Source: Bacteroidota bacterium (GTDB lineage Bacteria > Bacteroidota > Bacteroidia > Flavobacteriales_E > Vicingaceae). Taken from it: a stretch of DNA of 64,000 bases. The stretch is from contig JABFGJ010000003.1 of the NCBI GenBank assembly GCA_013112545.1, positions 62,001-126,000 of the forward strand, read 5' to 3'. Position numbers and translations under genes: made by a program. This document shows, one piece after another, positions 27,726-34,661 of the stretch (its first letter is position 1; each line of letters begins with the position of its first letter). Under the pieces are notes generated by a model. That model saw only the letters and a list, made by a program, of their open reading frames with translations, ran no database searches and was not told the DNA's origin.

Positions 27726-28410
27726 AAACCTAAGTATATTAATTCCAGTCTTAAATGAAGCTTCTATTTTAGAGGCTTTATTTTTTGAATTGCAGAAGAT
27801 TACCTTGCCTTATGAGCTGATTTTTATTGATGGAGGCAGTACCGATAAGACCAAAGAAATACTTGAACAACATCAATATTCGGTAATCAATTCTGATAAA
27901 GGAAGGAGTATTCAAATGAATCTTGGAGCTCAAAACGCTCAGGGAGAATTTCTGTTGTTTTTGCATGCGGACATTCGTTTTCCGAATAATATAAATGAAA
28001 AACTAAATGAGCTTTTAGAGGATGAAATCCCATTTGCAAATTTCAAACTTGTTTTTGATAAAAAGCACTGGTTTCTGCAATTGAATGCTGTTTTTACTTA
28101 TTCTACGTTAAGCCCCTTTCAATTTGGTGATCAAGGTTTGTGGTTGAGCAAATCACTTTTTAATCGAGTAGGAGCTTATGATGAAAACATGTTTCTGATT
28201 GAAGATCAAGATATAATTCGACGAGTAAATAAGTATGAAAAACTTTATAAAATTGATGCAGCCTTAGTAGTTTCAGCTCGGAAATACGATAAACATGGAG
28301 TCTTTAAATTGCAGTTTGTCTATTATTACATTTACTTCTTGTACCGCTTAGGTGTAGGGCAGAAGAGCTTATTAAAGCAATTGAATAATTGTTTAAAAAT
28401 AGAGGGTTGA
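27640..28410 (+). CDS. family 2 glycosyltransferase (TIGR04283-like)
   Basis: Glycosyltransferase of the group related to TIGR04283. The conserved part begins with SILIPVLNEASILEAL (near 27733) and shows IDGGSTDKTKEIL, KGRSIQMNLGAQNAQGEFLLF, the LHADIRFP metal-binding box, GDQGLWLSK and IEDQDIIRRV. The start is uncertain: GTG 27640 gives 256 residues but the first 30 overlap tamB and look non-native, and there is no ATG before the domain. Translation may couple to the tamB stop at 27723-27725. Acceptor and sugar are unknown. Confidence 0.82.
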   Translation: MLVYFIEKNSIILTSCGEGIFIKKILKIKNLSILIPVLNEASILEALFFELQKITLPYELIFIDGGSTDKTKEILEQHQYSVINSDKGRSIQMNLGAQNAQGEFLLFLHADIRFPNNINEKLNELLEDEIPFANFKLVFDKKHWFLQLNAVFTYSTLSPFQFGDQGLWLSKSLFNRVGAYDENMFLIEDQDIIRRVNKYEKLYKIDAALVVSARKYDKHGVFKLQFVYYYIYFLYRLGVGQKSLLKQLNNCLKIEG

Positions 28411-28543
28411 GCTATAAATAGACCGGTTTTTCGGTTGAGATTTATTAATAAGTATATATATGTATTATTTCACTTATTAAAGATTCAAATTTGTATTAGA
28501 AAAATCAATTCTCAGAGTTTAAATATTAGGTGATTTTCTAGAA

Positions 28544-29428
28544 TCATTCGTTTAAAATATTGGCTAAAACTTTATTAAAGCGAGCCTCATCTTCCAAGTT
28601 TATTAAATGCGCTACACTATCTAATTCAATTTTATTTGATTTTTTTATTCTTTGATGATATTCCTCTGCTATAAGAATAATATCTTCTGCATCCTTTTTA
28701 CCAACAAGGATATAAGTTGGAGCCTGTATATTTTCTAACCTAGAGCGTGCAGTATTTGTATCTAAATCTGACCATTCTTCTTGCCAATGATTCCGCATAT
28801 TTTTGTAGATCATATTTAGGCTTGTAGAATAGAATGTATCGTGCAATTCGTTTTTTGAGCGCTTGGGACCTATAACCCAATTCTGATGAAATAATTCTGC
28901 AGCTTTTAAAGTATCAGCAAATTTTATAGCTGCTTGCCTTAATTTATTATTCTTAGCTGCCAAACTATCCTTAAAGTATGGCCAACCATTTAGTCCAGGT
29001 GAAACCAATATTAACTTTTCAACCTTATTGGGATAATTAAGAGCAAAATCTACACATAACATAGCACCCCAAGAAAGACCTACTAATACAAATTTATCAT
29101 TCGGATAACTTTTTGTCAGCTCATTTATTATTTCGTAACCGAACAATGGTTGATTTGAATTTTCAGTTTTGCCATGTCCTAAATCTGAAAACCTAATTAA
29201 TTGATGCTTCCCTTCAAATTCTTTTACTTGTGGATTCCACATATCTAAATCTAAGTATCCACCATGTGCAAATATTATTGGAGAACCACTACCACTTGAT
29301 TTAACATGAATTTTATGCTCATTCAATGAAAGGAACATTTCTTTTTCATTTTTCATTTCTGTTTTGCATGAAAAAAGAAAAATTAAAATAAAAGGGAAAT
29401 AGTGTTTCATCATTTTATTTAGCATCAT
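28544..29428 (-). CDS. alpha/beta hydrolase, probably a lipoprotein
   Basis: A 294-residue hydrolase with an N-terminal hydrophobic signal ending in LFSC (lipobox, Cys near residue 21), so it may be lipid-anchored. The core has FAHGGYLDLDMW, the nucleophile motif GLSWGAM, a catalytic acid in VGKKDAEDI and the histidine in DSVAHLINLEDEA. It resembles the proline-iminopeptidase/haloperoxidase branch. The upstream and downstream regions hold unrelated genes. Substrate unknown. Confidence 0.8.
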   Translation of the reverse strand: MMLNKMMKHYFPFILIFLFSCKTEMKNEKEMFLSLNEHKIHVKSSGSGSPIIFAHGGYLDLDMWNPQVKEFEGKHQLIRFSDLGHGKTENSNQPLFGYEIINELTKSYPNDKFVLVGLSWGAMLCVDFALNYPNKVEKLILVSPGLNGWPYFKDSLAAKNNKLRQAAIKFADTLKAAELFHQNWVIGPKRSKNELHDTFYSTSLNMIYKNMRNHWQEEWSDLDTNTARSRLENIQAPTYILVGKKDAEDIILIAEEYHQRIKKSNKIELDSVAHLINLEDEARFNKVLANILNE

Positions 29429-29470
29429 TAAAGGAGTTTTTCACAAAGACTTATTTTGGCTTTTTCAAGT

Positions 29471-29854
29471 TTAAATAATTTCTGCAATTGCTATAATATG
29501 TCCGTCCAAATCTGATAGATATGCTACTTTATCACCCCAATCTCGGTCTTTCAAACTGCTGATTTCCTTGCCACCAATAAGTATCCCTCGCTTTATATAT
29601 TCTTCTGCGTTCTTGACCTTTAAATATAATTCACACCTTGGAATCCCGCTGCCAAGCTTTGGATGTGGAGTTTTGTCTGTCAGTATTTTAGCAATGCCTA
29701 TTTCTGGCATTAAGCCAAGTTTTACCCCGTCCACCAAAGTAAACTCGGTCATTCCAGGAACATCTAAACTTGGAGAAGAATCAAGTAGTTTTTGATAGAA
29801 AAGTTTGCTTTTTTCTTGATTAGCGACATAAAGAATAAATAGAACTTCTTTCAT
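29471..29854 (-). CDS. VOC-superfamily (glyoxalase-like) protein
   Basis: A 127-residue protein with the beta-alpha-beta-beta-beta repeat of the VOC fold: MKEVLFILYVANQEKSKLFY at the start, GMTEFTLVDGVKLGLMP, then ELYLKVKNAEEYIKRGI and DRDWGDKVAYLSDLDGHIIAIAE. Such proteins include glyoxalases, dioxygenases and antibiotic-binding proteins; metal ligands are not obvious enough to choose. I start at ATG 29854, since the longer frame (to 29926) adds residues before the fold. Confidence 0.8.
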   Translation of the reverse strand: MKEVLFILYVANQEKSKLFYQKLLDSSPSLDVPGMTEFTLVDGVKLGLMPEIGIAKILTDKTPHPKLGSGIPRCELYLKVKNAEEYIKRGILIGGKEISSLKDRDWGDKVAYLSDLDGHIIAIAEII

Positions 29855-30008
29855 ATATTCAATCGACTTATTGATTTTTATCAAAACTTTCCCATTCAGT
29901 TTAAACTTTAAACGAGAGGTTACCAAAATTGATTCTAAAAATAGGATTTTATTTAAAAAAATAAATTCAATGAGTCTGAGATTGAAGTCCTAGTTGATTT
30001 GAAATGTT

Positions 30009-30035
30009 AAAAAAATGTTTCTTAAACGAAACATT
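30009..30035 (-). terminator. terminator of the DUF2024-MarR transcript
   Basis: AATGTTTC (30014-30021) and GAAACATT (30028-30035) form a stem with a 6-base loop, followed on the minus strand by seven T; it lies 57 bases after the regulator's stop codon. Confidence 0.6.
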
Positions 30036-30091
30036 AGATCATAAATGACAATTTGAAAATGCCACTTTACAAATGCTTGACTTATTCAATT

Positions 30092-30694
30092 TTAAGAAAT
30101 CATTTCGTGTTCAGGGCAATCCACACGAATTTCTGATTCAGCGAGTTTAGTGTTCAATAAATTGCAAAAATGAATTCCATTGTCAGCATTATAATAGGAA
30201 CAGGTAAAGCACATTCGCTGTATGGTAATTATTCCAGCTTTGTTTAGGTCATAAATCATTTTTAATAGACCATTCAGGATAATGGTTTTTTGCTCTTCTG
30301 TTAGTTTCTCTATGGGTTTTTCTATGGGTGAAGCAAAAAAAGATGATTTTTCAGCTAACTGTTTTCCTTGTGAAGTGAGTGAAATTGTGAAACTTCTTGT
30401 ATCAATGAGATCAGCTTCTTTAATTACTAAACCTTTGGAAATTAAAACTCTAACGCTATCACTAATAGTCGCTTTGGTCATATTAAATTCGGAGGCTAAA
30501 TAACTGATTTTGCATTTTTCTTGTGAGTGGAACAATAAGAAAATCAAAAGTTGAATTTGTATTGGACTCAAGGAGTTATCCTTGCTTTCATTCCAAAGTA
30601 AAACCCTAAATGCTTCTGATATACGCTCTAAAGCCACAACAATTTTACTCTCAGTACTTCTATTTTGTCTATTTAAATCAAAAGAAGATTTCAT
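30092..30694 (-). CDS. MarR-family regulator with four-cysteine C-terminus
   Basis: A 200-residue DNA-binding protein. Its winged helix-turn-helix covers about residues 40-110 (KISYLASEFNMTKATISDSV, then LVIKEADLIDTRSFTISLTS). After a helix the last 40 residues carry Cys162, Cys165, Cys177 and Cys193 (CX2CX11CX15C, ending DCPEHEM). I recall this type of tail in some MarR proteins of other bacteria; it could bind zinc or an iron-sulfur cluster, or sense oxidants, but this is inferred. It overlaps the DUF2024 gene by ATGA and likely binds the palindrome found in front of three nearby transcription units. Confidence 0.85.
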   Translation of the reverse strand: MKSSFDLNRQNRSTESKIVVALERISEAFRVLLWNESKDNSLSPIQIQLLIFLLFHSQEKCKISYLASEFNMTKATISDSVRVLISKGLVIKEADLIDTRSFTISLTSQGKQLAEKSSFFASPIEKPIEKLTEEQKTIILNGLLKMIYDLNKAGIITIQRMCFTCSYYNADNGIHFCNLLNTKLAESEIRVDCPEHEMIS

Positions 30695-30957
30695 AAATTA
30701 CAGTTTTCCATTTCATAAATAAAATACCCTTGTTGTTTGATGGCTTTTTCCCAATGGGGCTTTATCGATTCTATATGGCAAAAAACACATTCCTCACTTG
30801 TTAATGCTTGACCTGATTGACCTTTAGAATTGAGGTAGGTTTTGCCATATTCATAAACGGTTTCTTTGTTTTTCATTTCTTCAGGAACAATAATATCAAA
30901 GTGCATTATTACCCCATCCTTTCTAGTTACGTAAGTATCCCAAACTGCTACATTCAT
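30691..30957 (-). CDS. DUF2024 family protein
   Basis: A small soluble protein of 88 residues from ATG 30957 (MNVAVWDTYVTRKDG), the usual start of DUF2024; the longer frame is not needed. A Cys57-X2-Cys60-His61 motif (EECVFCHIE) and HWEKAIKQQGYFIYEME are visible. Structure and role of the family are not known to me. It overlaps the MarR gene by ATGA and shares its promoter at 30985-31016, so the two proteins are made together. Confidence 0.85.
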   Translation of the reverse strand: MNVAVWDTYVTRKDGVIMHFDIIVPEEMKNKETVYEYGKTYLNSKGQSGQALTSEECVFCHIESIKPHWEKAIKQQGYFIYEMENCNL

Positions 30958-30975
30958 GTTTTCAATTATTGAAAA

Positions 30976-31013
30976 AAAGCCCTGCAAAGATAGGAATCCT
31001 AACTTTGCAGGGC
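30976..31013. terminator. hairpin with regulator palindrome in its loop
   Basis: GCCCTGCAAAG (30979-30989) and CTTTGCAGGGC (31003-31013) form an 11-bp stem. On the minus strand a T run (30971-30978) follows, so it terminates the transcript of the 31020 gene. Its 13-base loop contains AGGAATCCT, part of the shared palindrome. Confidence 0.75.
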
Positions 31014-31016
31014 AAA
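30985..31016 (-). promoter_or_regulatory. promoter and operator of the DUF2024-MarR operon
   Basis: On the minus strand TTTG (31013-31016) and TATCTTTG (30985-30992) are 20 bases apart, a textbook Bacteroidota promoter. The palindrome ATAGGAATCCTAAC (30990-31003) sits just upstream of and partly over the -7 box, where a bound regulator would block polymerase. All of it lies in a 62-base intergenic space. Confidence 0.7.
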
Positions 31017-31019
31017 AAA

Positions 31020-31757
31020 TTATTTTACTTGATAGGGCAATGACAAATCACCACTTGCAATCGAATATACTTTATACACACCAAGCATAGGTTTTTCTCC
31101 ACCGCCATGGCCGCCTTCACCGCCTGTTTTTACTTGCAGAAACGCAGCAACACCATCATAAGAAAAATCAATTTGATTATTCATGCGATAATTCGGAACG
31201 ACAACCTTTATTGAATTTCCAGAAGTGATTACCTGAAATCCTGGCGAGTCCATATACATTGGCATACCTGGATTTGTTGGAGGCAAAATCACACTTTTAT
31301 CCTCAGGTTTAAATTGTTTAACAGCCAAACCACCTTCTACACGTTTGTCTTCAGTCAATACAACCCAATGTGGGTGCCAAACTATGCCGTCATTCGCATA
31401 ATTTCGATCTGCATTTTCATCCCAAAGCGGTGTGTCATCAAAGTCAGGATGAGAGGTTAAAGCAAGTGCGACGATTCCTTCTGTCTCATTAAATCCTACA
31501 TCTGTCGGTTTTAAAGAAGTAGGGAATACATAAGCCAGTACTGGAGCGCCATTGAGTTGTCCAGCTGGGCTTGGGGTAGTTTTTCCCGCATTGCCTTTTA
31601 CTGTTATTTCCCAGATTGTTGCTTCAATTGCAGCTTCGTGTTTAACATTTACACTTTTGATTTGGAAATCGTCATTGTTGTAGTTACCACATTTGTCACA
31701 TGCAAAAACTTCAACGCTAAGCATTGATACTAGAGCAAATAGAATAAGTTGTTTCAT
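31020..31757 (-). CDS. exported CxxC protein of unknown function
   Basis: A 245-residue protein with a signal peptide (about residues 1-19) and a mature end starting Cys20-Asp-Lys-Cys23; the VFAC context is near a lipobox but not a good one. The mature part contains SPAGQLNGAPVLAYVFPTSL, VWHPHWVVLTED and a Gly/His-rich stretch GGEGGHGGGEKP. I recognise no domain. Its own promoter region carries the palindrome (31798-31810) shared with the thioredoxin-like gene and the MarR operon, so the four genes probably answer to the same signal. Confidence 0.75.
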   Translation of the reverse strand: MKQLILFALVSMLSVEVFACDKCGNYNNDDFQIKSVNVKHEAAIEATIWEITVKGNAGKTTPSPAGQLNGAPVLAYVFPTSLKPTDVGFNETEGIVALALTSHPDFDDTPLWDENADRNYANDGIVWHPHWVVLTEDKRVEGGLAVKQFKPEDKSVILPPTNPGMPMYMDSPGFQVITSGNSIKVVVPNYRMNNQIDFSYDGVAAFLQVKTGGEGGHGGGEKPMLGVYKVYSIASGDLSLPYQVK

Positions 31758-31792
31758 TTTTTTATTTTAAGTTTAGAATGAATTTAGACTTA

Positions 31793-31810
31793 GTAAATTA
31801 GGAATCCTAA
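31793..31810 (-). promoter_or_regulatory. operator and weak -7 box before the exported CxxC gene
   Basis: TTAGGAATCCTAA (31798-31810) is the most symmetric copy of the palindrome (six-base arms, single centre base). On the minus strand TAATTTAC (31793-31800) stands where a -7 box would be, only a partial match to TAnnTTTG. Confidence 0.6.
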
Positions 31811-31830
31811 CATAGAAGTCTAAAATTTTT

Positions 31831-32064
31831 TTAGCCTTTTACATCAGCCATAGATGCACCAAAATTGAGATGAAGTACATTTCTATTTGGTGTTAACAAA
31901 GCCGGAACAGATTTTACACCTGCATTTTCAGCTTCAGCAATGCGATTACGATCCTCACCAATGTTTACGAGTTCTACATTGTCAGCACCAATTAGATTAA
32001 GGATTTCATGCTCAGCACTTACACATACTGGGCAACCTGCGTGATAGAAAATAGATTTTACCAT
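31831..32064 (-). CDS. mini thioredoxin/glutaredoxin-like protein
   Basis: A 77-residue cytoplasmic protein. MVKSIFYHAGCPVCVSAEHE places the redox pair at Cys11-X2-Cys14, followed by VELVNIGEDRNRIAEAENAG and a cis-Pro loop (VKSVPALLT). This is the compact thioredoxin fold, shorter than normal thioredoxin. It would reduce disulfides of small partners, perhaps of the neighbours with CxxC motifs. A TATATTTG box and the shared palindrome lie upstream. Confidence 0.85.
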   Translation of the reverse strand: MVKSIFYHAGCPVCVSAEHEILNLIGADNVELVNIGEDRNRIAEAENAGVKSVPALLTPNRNVLHLNFGASMADVKG

Positions 32065-32103
32065 TTCGTTAATTATTTAATTTATTTAGCATTATTGCTG
32101 CCG

Positions 32104-32127
32104 CAAATATAGTAAGGAATCCTAACT
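32104..32127 (-). promoter_or_regulatory. promoter and operator of the thioredoxin-like gene
   Basis: TATATTTG on the minus strand (32104-32111) matches TAnnTTTG. The palindrome AGTAAGGAATCCTAACT (32111-32127) abuts it, in the same position relative to the -7 box as in the other two copies. Confidence 0.65.
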
Positions 32128-32267
32128 ATAAAAATTTAATTCAATATTTTTATTGAACTTTTTTTTAAGTTATTAATAATCAATAATTAAATATACTGTG
32201 TCGTGAAATTAATTCAGATAAAGTTTGGAGCTTGCAAAAAAGTGTATGCATCGTTAGCAAGTTGAAA

Positions 32268-32741
32268 TTAATCTTGATGCTTTAAATGTTTTTTAATGAG
32301 TAATACTTGTCCAAGATGATAGTAGGTATGTTCTATCATTAAATCAATGTTTCTATAATAGCTTCCATAGTTAGGATCTATAAAATTGCTCATTAATTTT
32401 TCATTATCCAATTGCTCAACTAGAGCAATAAATTTCTCAGAATCTGAGCAAAAAACATGGACTAAATTATCCCAATCTTGTTTAGATTGGATAGGAGGTG
32501 AATCAAAACTAAACTTGTCTTTAATATCTAAAGTTCCCCCTTCTAACACTTTTGATACACCAGAAATGTAATAATGTATATGGAAAGTTAAGTCGGCAAT
32601 TGTATTGAAATTTTCAACCTTTCGAATAGCATCCTTCCAGTCCAAATCAACAATCTGTTCTTTGAAATTAGTTCCAACAACCCATTTTCCTTCGGTAAAA
32701 ATTTCTTTTAGTCGAGTGGATAAATATACATTTAGTTTCAT
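32268..32741 (-). CDS. DinB-like protein
   Basis: A 157-residue four-helix-bundle protein of the DinB/YfiT superfamily. Histidines for a possible metal site are in DLTFHIHYYISG (near residues 52-54) and IEHTYYHLGQVLL (near 137-142). The second motif, HxxxxxxHxxQ-like, is the family's hallmark. Many members are thiol-dependent transferases, but this one is not assigned. The DUF2892 gene upstream ends with an ATGA overlap, so the two are co-translated. Confidence 0.78.
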   Translation of the reverse strand: MKLNVYLSTRLKEIFTEGKWVVGTNFKEQIVDLDWKDAIRKVENFNTIADLTFHIHYYISGVSKVLEGGTLDIKDKFSFDSPPIQSKQDWDNLVHVFCSDSEKFIALVEQLDNEKLMSNFIDPNYGSYYRNIDLMIEHTYYHLGQVLLIKKHLKHQD

Positions 32742-32938
32742 TTACTGCAACTACTAAATCCAAATAAGGTATAAAGTGGACAAAAACTGATAAAACTAGT
32801 TAAAATAAAGACCGAACCTAGAACCAATAGGGCGATTCCAAAAATACCCGTGACAGTTTGTGTAATAAATAAAACTGAAAATACTGCTGCTAAAAGTAGC
32901 CTAAGCACTCGGTCGAGTGTTCCCATATTTTTTTTCAT
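32738..32938 (-). CDS. DUF2892 (YgaP-like) membrane protein
   Basis: A 66-residue protein with two hydrophobic helices: MGTLDRVLRLLLAAVFSVLF, then the second segment and the conserved FISFCPLYTLFGFSSC end. This is DUF2892, the membrane part of YgaP-type rhodaneses, here without the rhodanese domain. The Cys residues near the C-terminus are conserved in the family. It overlaps the DinB gene by ATGA. Confidence 0.88.
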   Translation of the reverse strand: MKKNMGTLDRVLRLLLAAVFSVLFITQTVTGIFGIALLVLGSVFILTSFISFCPLYTLFGFSSCSK

Positions 32939-32978
32939 AAGTTATTTTTTTAAGTAATTAAATTATCTATAGTTTAAA

Positions 32979-33803
32979 TTAAAGCGAATTAGATTGAGTG
33001 TTTATTTGTGAATCTCTTCCACTAACTGTCGCAAGTATATGTTCTAAAGCTGCTATTCTAGCTTCAGTTTTTCGATCGGCATTTATGATTACCCAAGGTG
33101 AATTTTCGGTGTTTGTTTTTTCAAACATTTTAAATTTAAAATCAGTGTATTTTTCCCACAATTCTTGTGCTTTTTCATCTACGGCTGTCATCTTCCACTT
33201 TTTTAGTGGATTTGAGTTTATATCTTTAAAGCGGCTTGCTTGCTCTTCTTTTGAAATAGAAAAATATAGTTTAATCAAATAAGTGTCAGATTCCTGTATC
33301 ATTCGCTCAAAATCATTGACTTGACCCATAAAAACATGATATTCTTCTAAGGTGCAAAAGCCATTAACTGGCTCGACAATAGCTCTATTATACCAACTGC
33401 GATCAAAAAATACGATATGCCCTGGAGCGGGAAGTTTATTGACATAGCGTTGAAAATACCACTGGCCCAACTCATTGCTATCGGGCTTGGGCAGCGCAAC
33501 TGTTTTGTAATACCTCGGGTTTATATGTGCCGTTATTCTTCTTATTGCTCCACCTTTTCCAGCTGAATCTCGACCTTCAAAAAGAACAACTAATTTTTTA
33601 TTGTTATTGATAATCCAGTTTTGTAAAGCAATCAATTCCGCTTGTAATTCTTTAAGTCTAAGCAGGTATCTTGTCATTCTAAGGGCTTTCTCAACATTTG
33701 TTTTTTTATAATGAAACAATTGTCTTTTTCCAATTTTAGAATTCAACAATTCCAAATCTTCAACAGTAAACTCATCGATTTGTACGGGTTCTTTTTTTAT
33801 CAT
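32979..33803 (-). CDS. ppk2: polyphosphate kinase 2 (second of a tandem pair)
   Basis: A 274-residue PPK2 with Walker A FEGRDSAGKGGAIRRI (residues 75-90), the lid region HINPRYYKTVALPKPDSNE and Walker B FFDRSWYNRAIVEPV. PPK2 enzymes transfer phosphate between polyphosphate and nucleotides, typically making GTP or ATP from polyphosphate. It lies three bases after the end of another PPK2 gene. The active-site blocks match closely while the N- and C-termini differ. Which nucleotide it prefers cannot be told from sequence alone. Confidence 0.92.
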   Translation of the reverse strand: MIKKEPVQIDEFTVEDLELLNSKIGKRQLFHYKKTNVEKALRMTRYLLRLKELQAELIALQNWIINNNKKLVVLFEGRDSAGKGGAIRRITAHINPRYYKTVALPKPDSNELGQWYFQRYVNKLPAPGHIVFFDRSWYNRAIVEPVNGFCTLEEYHVFMGQVNDFERMIQESDTYLIKLYFSISKEEQASRFKDINSNPLKKWKMTAVDEKAQELWEKYTDFKFKMFEKTNTENSPWVIINADRKTEARIAALEHILATVSGRDSQINTQSNSL

Positions 33804-33806
33804 TTC

Positions 33807-34661
33807 CTAAATATCGATTTGTTCTAAATTACGGTAATAGCGCATTATAACATTTGGGTCGGGTAGGGTAGAAATCTTTTTAAGGTTATTTCTAGAGTAT
33901 TCAAATTGTGAAAGCACATAGCGCATACTTTCAAGTCTAGCAGTTTTTTTATTATTGGTTTTTACAATTATCCATGGGCTAAAAGTGCTATGAGTCTTAG
34001 AAAACATCATTTCTTTATAATAGGTGTATTTGTCCCACAAACGCTGTCCTTCCATGTCAACTTCACTAAATTTCCACACTTTAAGTGGATTTTGTAGCCT
34101 TGCTTCAAATCGCTTTTTTTGTTCTTCTTTTGAAATGGAGAACCAGAATTTGATCAAAATAATTCCATCTTCATACAACATGTGTTCAAAACCTGGGACT
34201 TGCACCATAAATTGATTGTATTCAGTTGCACTGCAAAAACCCATGACTGGCTCTACAACTGCACGATTGTACCAGCTTCGATCAAAAAATACAATTTCCC
34301 CGGGATTGGGTAACTCTTTGATGTATCTTCTAAAAAACCACTGTCCTTTCTCAACTTCGGTTGGTTTTGAAAGCGCTACAACACGAACTGACCTAGGATT
34401 TAAATGTTCAGTAAATCGTTTAATCGTTCCTCCTTTACCTGCTGCATCTCTTCCTTCTAGTATGATTGCCACACGAAGCTTTTTCTTGGCTACCCAATGT
34501 TGTAGGTTAACCAATTCTGCTTGCAATGATCGTAATTCTTCTTCGTAGTGTATATTCCTTAAAGTGCTTTTAATTCGAATGCCTTTTTCATTGGCAATTT
34601 TTATTAAATCTTTACGACGTTTCGCTTTTTTTAAATCTTCGAGCGTAAACTTATTTTCCAT
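33807..34661 (-). CDS. ppk2: polyphosphate kinase 2 (first of a tandem pair)
   Basis: A 284-residue PPK2 with Walker A LEGRDAAGKGGTIKRF (68-83), the HLNPRSVRVVALSKPTEVE lid and Walker B FFDRSWYNRAVVEPV. The C-terminal RNNLKKISTLPDPNVIMRYY extension is not present in its neighbour. It is upstream of the second copy by three bases and must be co-transcribed. It resembles the class I, one-domain PPK2. A universal stress protein gene starts just before this operon, which fits a stress or energy-reserve role. Confidence 0.92.
   Translation of the reverse strand: MENKFTLEDLKKAKRRKDLIKIANEKGIRIKSTLRNIHYEEELRSLQAELVNLQHWVAKKKLRVAIILEGRDAAGKGGTIKRFTEHLNPRSVRVVALSKPTEVEKGQWFFRRYIKELPNPGEIVFFDRSWYNRAVVEPVMGFCSATEYNQFMVQVPGFEHMLYEDGIILIKFWFSISKEEQKKRFEARLQNPLKVWKFSEVDMEGQRLWDKYTYYKEMMFSKTHSTFSPWIIVKTNNKKTARLESMRYVLSQFEYSRNNLKKISTLPDPNVIMRYYRNLEQIDI

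Follow-up and report, generated by a model that had tools for sequence, protein, structure and literature searches.

The 62 bases (30958–31019) that separate two genes in the window, a stretch of 64 000 nucleotides of a Bacteroidota genome (host assembly of 3.27 Mb), raise the question of how so short a space could end one transcription unit and regulate the next. The overlap of terminator, operator and promoter proposed for this space in the original prediction could pass for mere crowding in a small gap. The genes concerned lie on the minus strand, in the order thioredoxin-like (Trx-like), CxxC, DUF2024 and MarR-family regulator.

31831–32064, minus strand: gene for a thioredoxin-like protein of 77 amino acids, the first unit of the presumed regulon.
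31020–31757, minus strand: CxxC gene, coding for a secreted-looking protein of 245 amino acids with the motif CDKCG, 5′ of the hairpin.
30691–30957, minus strand: DUF2024 gene (PF09630), with a CxFC motif, the first gene 3′ of the hairpin.
30092–30694, minus strand: gene for the MarR-family regulator, with a C-terminal extension bearing four invariant cysteines, the second gene 3′ of the hairpin.

The stop codon of the CxxC gene occupies 31022–31020 and the ATG of the DUF2024 gene lies at 30957, which leaves the gap of 62 bases that had been described. The DUF2024 and marR genes overlap by 4 bases and so presumably form one operon. The thioredoxin-like protein has a sequence match to PDB entry 2k8s; a scan of Pfam and NCBIfam with the 245-residue CxxC protein gave no match. 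Among the papers listed, PMC6393860 alone names DUF2024.

Three elements at the 5′ part of the gap have the form of a terminator.

31003–31013, minus strand: 5′ arm of the predicted terminator hairpin, GCCCTGCAAAG (pairing, folding, covariation).
30979–30989, minus strand: 3′ arm of the predicted terminator hairpin, CTTTGCAGGGC (pairing, folding, covariation).
30972–30978, minus strand: run of seven T, 3′ of the stem in the direction of transcription (sequence; recurs in relatives).

The stem GCCCTGCAAAG/CTTTGCAGGGC (30979–31013) begins 6 nt after the stop codon, is stable and GC-rich, and is followed directly by the T-run. The original prediction of an 11-bp stem holds: the 11 pairs are perfect, and the predicted RNA fold of −26.3 kcal mol−1 (z = −5.7; mean of shuffled sequences −11.2, s.d. 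2.6) is equalled by none of 200 shuffles. In this fold the bases of the operator (see below) are paired as well and a loop of 3 nt remains. Among inverted repeats with arms at most 60 nt apart in the region 28000–34000, the hairpin is the second longest (17 nt, 94% complementary); the longest (23 nt, 74% complementary) brackets a second operator. A simple terminator scan of the window did not return the hairpin at 30979–31013, probably because the scan permits loops of 3–8 only. We regard the hairpin as a putative intrinsic terminator of the upstream gene, from which factor-free release of the RNA is predicted.

The loop is occupied by a palindrome that occurs, nearly identical, three times in the locus (TTAGGANTCCTAA, at 30990, 31798 and 32113): 5′ of the thioredoxin-like gene, 5′ of the CxxC gene and 5′ of DUF2024-marR.

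30990–31002, minus strand: putative operator palindrome TTAGGATTCCTAT in the loop, extending the stem when transcribed into RNA.
31798–31810, minus strand: putative operator 3′ of the thioredoxin-like gene and 5′ of the CxxC gene, located in the loop of a hairpin with a stem of 9 bp.
32113–32125, minus strand: putative operator in the promoter of the thioredoxin-like gene, without terminator arms; the class of site used as control.

A regulator palindrome in the loop had been claimed, and TTAGGATTCCTAT is found there at 31002–30990. The palindrome is thus common to the promoter of the marR operon and to those of its neighbours, as in MarR operons, and a winged-helix MarR protein is encoded downstream. 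When up to three mismatches are allowed, the window contains 39 matches for 39.4 expected; this list is no better than chance, and the operator claim stands on the three best sites and on the relatives, in which the palindromes recur at homologous loci. Across the 3.27-Mb assembly, TNAGGAATCCTNA is confined to two positions of the locus, 31798 and 32113. Exact copies of TTAGGATTCCTAT are limited to the hairpin loop and one further site within a coding frame (presumably PyrD), and at up to one mismatch 12 matches are found in the assembly, compared with 10 for the reversed control pattern. The confinement of TNAGGAATCCTNA to the locus, the near-control count of TTAGGATTCCTAT and the coding location of its extra copy led us to propose no wider regulon. 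Binding of the regulator to the palindrome and repression are predicted; that it would repress rather than activate is read from the position of the site only.

Two promoter boxes share bases with the hairpin.

31013–31016, minus strand: −33 box TTTG of the predicted DUF2024-marR promoter, its last base being the first of the stem.
30985–30992, minus strand: predicted −7 box TATCTTTG, straddling the operator and the 3′ arm.

The available part of PMC7366714 gives TTTG at −33 and TAnnTTTG at −7 as the consensus for Bacteroides, and that of PMC9723704 gives it for flavobacteria, locating the −7 box at −12 to −5. Both boxes are present in the window, separated by a spacer of 20 nt. The TTTG at 31016–31013 lies at the edge of the stem, where the original prediction put it, but the −7 box is not in the loop as had been thought: TATCTTTG crosses the border of loop and stem, with TAT in the operator and CTTTG in the 3′ arm. 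A scan of the window for sigma-70 promoters gave 27 matches against 27.4 in shuffles, with no excess. Carried over to the window, the consensus position of the −7 box suggests that transcription begins around 30980, on the penultimate base of the 3′ arm and close to the bottom of the stem. An mRNA starting there would not contain the hairpin and would share only a few bases with the upstream transcript.

The position of this start bears on whether the hairpin could be a 5′ leader structure or an attenuator of the DUF2024-marR mRNA. The hairpin is directly upstream of that operon, and part of it gives a very weak Rfam match, to manA-II (24.8 bits, E = 0.33). We find the idea barely plausible, since the leader would not include the hairpin if transcription begins where the promoter boxes place it, at the bottom of the 3′ arm, the manA-II score is far under its cutoff of 100 and no Rfam family comes near its cutoff. 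The alignment folding for leader structures covered 50 aligned columns.

The reading that we prefer, with a probability of slightly more than three in four, is that a terminator has been built around the operator and promoter of the MarR regulator, that it works independently of the regulator, and that it shields the autoregulated regulator gene from read-through. Polymerase leaving the CxxC gene would transcribe both arms, which would fold with the operator sequence as the top of the stem, and the U-run would release the upstream transcript near 30972–30978. The next transcript would begin around 30980, at the bottom of the 3′ arm, as an mRNA free of the hairpin. The regulator encoded downstream would bind the DNA of the loop, in a position that lies between the −33 and −7 boxes and extends over them, and would repress its own operon. 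The terminator would work without the regulator, its likely use being to keep upstream read-through out of the regulator gene. That transcription stops and starts at these points, that the regulator binds and represses, and that the element serves as an insulator are all things that we infer. Of the two events that binding of the regulator could influence according to the original prediction, operator control of initiation is expected from the position of the operator; control of termination by the regulator is possible. The parts are of known kinds; new are their one common symmetry axis and the maintenance of the arms by compensatory change.

To compare homologous loci, the best 80 of the 181 loci that the regulator retrieved, from records titled as Bacteroidota, Balneolaceae, Ignavibacteria and Acidobacteria, were combined with eight further loci (L004–L011) from genomes of the same family or class, giving 89 with the window included. 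Seven weak matches (L012–L018), where no gene of the locus was found, were left out of this set, and six loci (L006, L009, L081, L083, L089 and L093) were dropped for having no Trx-like or CxxC gene upstream of marR. The comparison thus covers 83 loci, or 82 distinct ones, L004 and L090 being one contig.

At least 9 of the 11 arm pairs surround the place of the operator in 52 of the 83 loci (51 of the 82 distinct); in the other 31, fewer than 9 pairs are formed in this register. The operator itself has at most two mismatches in 40 of the 52 hairpin loci, and three or five in 12. The upstream gene is Trx-like in 30 of these loci and CxxC in 22, and with either type the distance from the stop codon to the operator place is 16–22 nt (51 of 52). 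The hairpin is kept while the downstream gene varies, being DUF2024, a globin or marR directly. The 8 bases after the stem include at least five T in 36 of the 52 loci and at most three in six.

A free search for any hairpin within 90 nt after the stop codon gave a score of at least 18 in 75 of the 83 loci, with at least five T of 8 in 52 of these 75, and a score under 18 in eight; several of the hairpins scoring 19–24 have their equal among 40 simple shuffles, and the 75 include hairpins other than the one discussed here. A covariance model of the hairpin was run on 395 genomes of the phylum, with strict filters and 15 candidates scored per genome. It matched five genomes: the window's own, L024, L021, L103 (an extra marR locus with a weak fit) and L104 (a terminator-like hairpin without operator and with no locus genes within about 3 kb). 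On this search of 395 genomes, the element is known only from this type of locus.

Selection on the pairing was assessed with 50 sites chosen regardless of pairing, as having an operator with at most two mismatches 10–30 nt after a stop codon. In these sites, 88.1 per cent of the cells are paired, compared with 36.4–54.9 per cent when the 3′ arm is slid by 1–3 positions. Cells in which both bases have changed number 66; shuffles give 19.6 ± 6.2, and not one of 500 reaches the observed count. The covariation score is 0.409 against 0.230. Two coarser ones of the five measures, the number of pairs with a double change (8 against 6.4; 97 of 500 shuffles) and that of pair types (20 against 16.9; 26 of 500 shuffles), are not exceptional. 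On the MarR tree, 32 double compensatory changes are counted in the real register (11 pairs), and one to six with slid arms (over 9–10 pairs); 100 whole-arm shuffles average 7.4 ± 2.7 and never exceed 14. The same count gives 51 pair-breaking changes. The 79 operators of Trx-like promoters, used as controls, have no excess of covariation (16 cells against 18.1 ± 3.0), and only one of the 79 pairs at seven or more of the 8 outer positions, compared with 41 of the 50 hairpin sites. Covariation thus exceeds that of shuffles, slid arms and control sites.

The same 50 sites have TTTG at −33 in 37 cases and TAnnTTT[GA] at −7 in 44 (final G in 24, final A in 20), the TA of the latter being part of the operator that served to select the sites. 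The mean number of T in the 8 bases after the stem is 4.98, compared with 1.82 at the control sites, which sit in a conserved leader and so are not a neutral yardstick for T content. Hairpin, T-run, promoter boxes and operator recur together across many genera. The sequence comparison thus shows a hairpin under selection for pairing, with which the operator and promoter boxes recur, and it lends good support to the original proposal of a single space in which one unit is terminated and the following one regulated. As the overlap has been kept by compensatory change while the genes on either side vary, selection appears to hold several functions on the same bases.

These comparisons also speak to a reading in which the whole inverted repeat is one long DNA operator, with its arms bound by the protein or forming a cruciform, and with the hairpin in the RNA as a by-product. 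Hairpin and operator do have a common symmetry axis, and the innermost flank, AG...CT, is common to hairpin and control operators; this flank may be part of the operator, with the outer arms alone specific to the hairpin. The arms, however, change in sequence while complementarity is kept, unlike DNA that is read; the equally conserved operators of Trx-like promoters are without outer arms; and T is enriched after the stem. We hold this reading to be very improbable.

A few loci in which hairpin and operator come apart are informative about the role of the regulator. In L045 the arms, the loop length of 13 nt and the T-run are kept, and the loop is no longer an operator. In three Acidobacteria (L085, L086 and L094), the same place is taken by an ordinary terminator-like hairpin without operator. 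Hairpins without operator also occur in L074 and L075, with T-runs and other arms, and in L097, with only one T in 8; given these other arms and the weak T-run, the separation of functions rests on L045 and the three Acidobacteria. The persistence of the hairpin without an operator in L045 indicates that it has a job of its own, and points to termination without the regulator. Pairing is likewise kept in L036, with a loop one base shorter, and in L051, with an altered loop.

Changes on the operator side can be followed in L005, L084, L088 and L090 (the same as L004), where the operator of the Trx-like promoter reads TTAGTTATCCTAA. The hairpin loop of these loci is changed in one half, in the opposite orientation, to TTAGGATAACTAC or TTAGGACAACTAC. 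Such matched changes are as expected if one regulator reads both sites. L098 is an exception, with a changed loop and the common operator at the Trx-like promoter. The loci of the TTAGTTATCCTAA type offer a natural test of the co-evolution of regulator and operator.

The regulator might, on the other hand, act on the terminator itself: bound at the loop, it would alter termination of the upstream unit, blocking polymerase before the 3′ arm or, when released, letting it pass, so that its signal would switch between separate and joined transcripts. The operator is placed exactly between the arms in dozens of loci, and polymerase must therefore run into a bound protein while the hairpin is still incomplete. 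In many relatives, operator copies likewise lie in, or form, hairpin arms at the second boundary, the one that separates the Trx-like from the CxxC gene. Against this, L045 retains hairpin and T-run without an operator, L036 and L051 retain pairing with altered loops, and a full hairpin with T-run should halt polymerase whether or not the protein is bound, so that little would remain to be switched. We consider such a switch unlikely.

At comparable, low odds, the element might pass polymerase control from one unit to the next: a protein bound at the loop would stop polymerase before the hairpin, and a free site would allow termination by the hairpin past the next start. If true, one element of about 50 bases would set termination, initiation and the insulation of the regulator gene together, and the same plan would apply at the second boundary, with two operator copies as the arms.

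The second hairpin of the window (31769–31838) has 9 bp around a single operator, and 7 of 100 shuffles fold as well. The operator is present with at most two mismatches at the Trx-like/CxxC boundary of 21 of 27 loci. An inverted partner copy, with up to three mismatches to the operator, pairs with it in 16 of these 21, and the centre bases are complementary, with G–U allowed, in 19 of 21. Since the partner copy was selected as the one that pairs best with the first operator, these pair counts are biased, and the two-operator hairpin is a lead rather than a test. The best hairpin at this boundary is equalled by none of 100 shuffles in 18 of the 27 loci.

The regulator-independent terminator that we favour resembles several known systems in part. 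Like intrinsic (Rho-independent) terminators, it has, shortly downstream of a stop codon, a GC-rich stem with covarying arms and then a T-run; unlike them, it has a presumed protein operator as its loop and the boxes of the next promoter in its arms. MepR, MexR and SlyA are autoregulated MarR-family proteins, and their operons have in common with the present one a winged-helix regulator and a promoter palindrome before its own operon; the C-terminal extension with four cysteines and the nesting of the operator in the terminator of the upstream gene set the present operon apart. In roadblock termination, DNA-bound repressors act as a roadblock to polymerase. Here too a protein, presumed to bind DNA, would confront polymerase where a unit ends, but a full intrinsic terminator surrounds its site and the roadblock is hypothetical; a search of the open PMC literature on roadblock termination found nothing close.

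Both boxes, 20 nt apart, correspond to a promoter of the Bacteroidota primary sigma factor as given in the available parts of PMC7366714 and PMC9723704, with the difference that here they touch or lie in a terminator stem, so that TTTG, as part of the −7 box, is also constrained to pair. In a synthetic Escherichia coli network, according to the available portion of PMC7968929, the output was altered by leakage through a terminator placed before a repressor gene. The locus also has a terminator preceding a repressor gene; the synthetic network was made of separate parts, whereas here the terminator is fused to operator and promoter. Judged by titles and the beginnings of abstracts, the papers listed in searches of the open PMC literature, outside which most subscription journals lie, include none on an operator in a terminator loop, on this operator or on this regulator, one of the listings covering 15 of 209 matches, and the available part of PMC4981023 describes no such arrangement of terminator and operator. 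The locus provides a natural system for studying the interplay of an intrinsic terminator with a repressor bound to DNA, and the reasons for which a regulator gene has to be insulated from the genes around it.

Two further features were observed around the Trx-like promoter. The sequence AGCAATAATGCT (32088–32099, minus strand), at the predicted +1 of the thioredoxin-like mRNA, has a stem of 4 bp and a loop of 4 nt, and is possibly a 5′-end RNA hairpin. The equivalent stem is complete in 47 of 79 sites and reduced to one to three pairs in 19, and the motif is absent in 13; double changes occur, for example GC to AT. In L085, L086 and L094, the operator upstream of the Trx-like gene is preceded by TTGACA, a sigma-70-like −35 element, in place of the Bacteroidota −33 box.

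The regulator matches PF12802 with 31.3 bits (cutoff 27), and its structural model (pLDDT 85.5) has matches to MepR, MexR and SlyA. Four cysteines of the C-terminal extension (162, 165, 177 and 193; C-x2-C-x11-C-x15-C) are invariant in 40 of 40 aligned relatives and possibly form a metal or Fe–S site. Recurrent neighbours include genes for a bacterial globin (nine loci) and for protoglobin, ScdA_N/hemerythrin and hemerythrin proteins (four loci each); one representative of each type was scanned for domains, that of the globins being barely above the cutoff (21.1 against 21 bits). The globin-like genes lie between the Trx-like gene and marR (L021, L023, L060, L063, L082, L084, L092 and others), protoglobin-like genes are found near marR (L071, L078, L081 and L083), and ScdA_N/hemerythrin genes in L033, L039, L070 and L089. 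These neighbours suggest, as a guess, a redox or nitric-oxide signal for the regulator. A gene with an alanine-racemase N-terminal domain (PF01168), which we take to be YggS-like, is found downstream of marR and on the same strand in 23 of the 89 loci.
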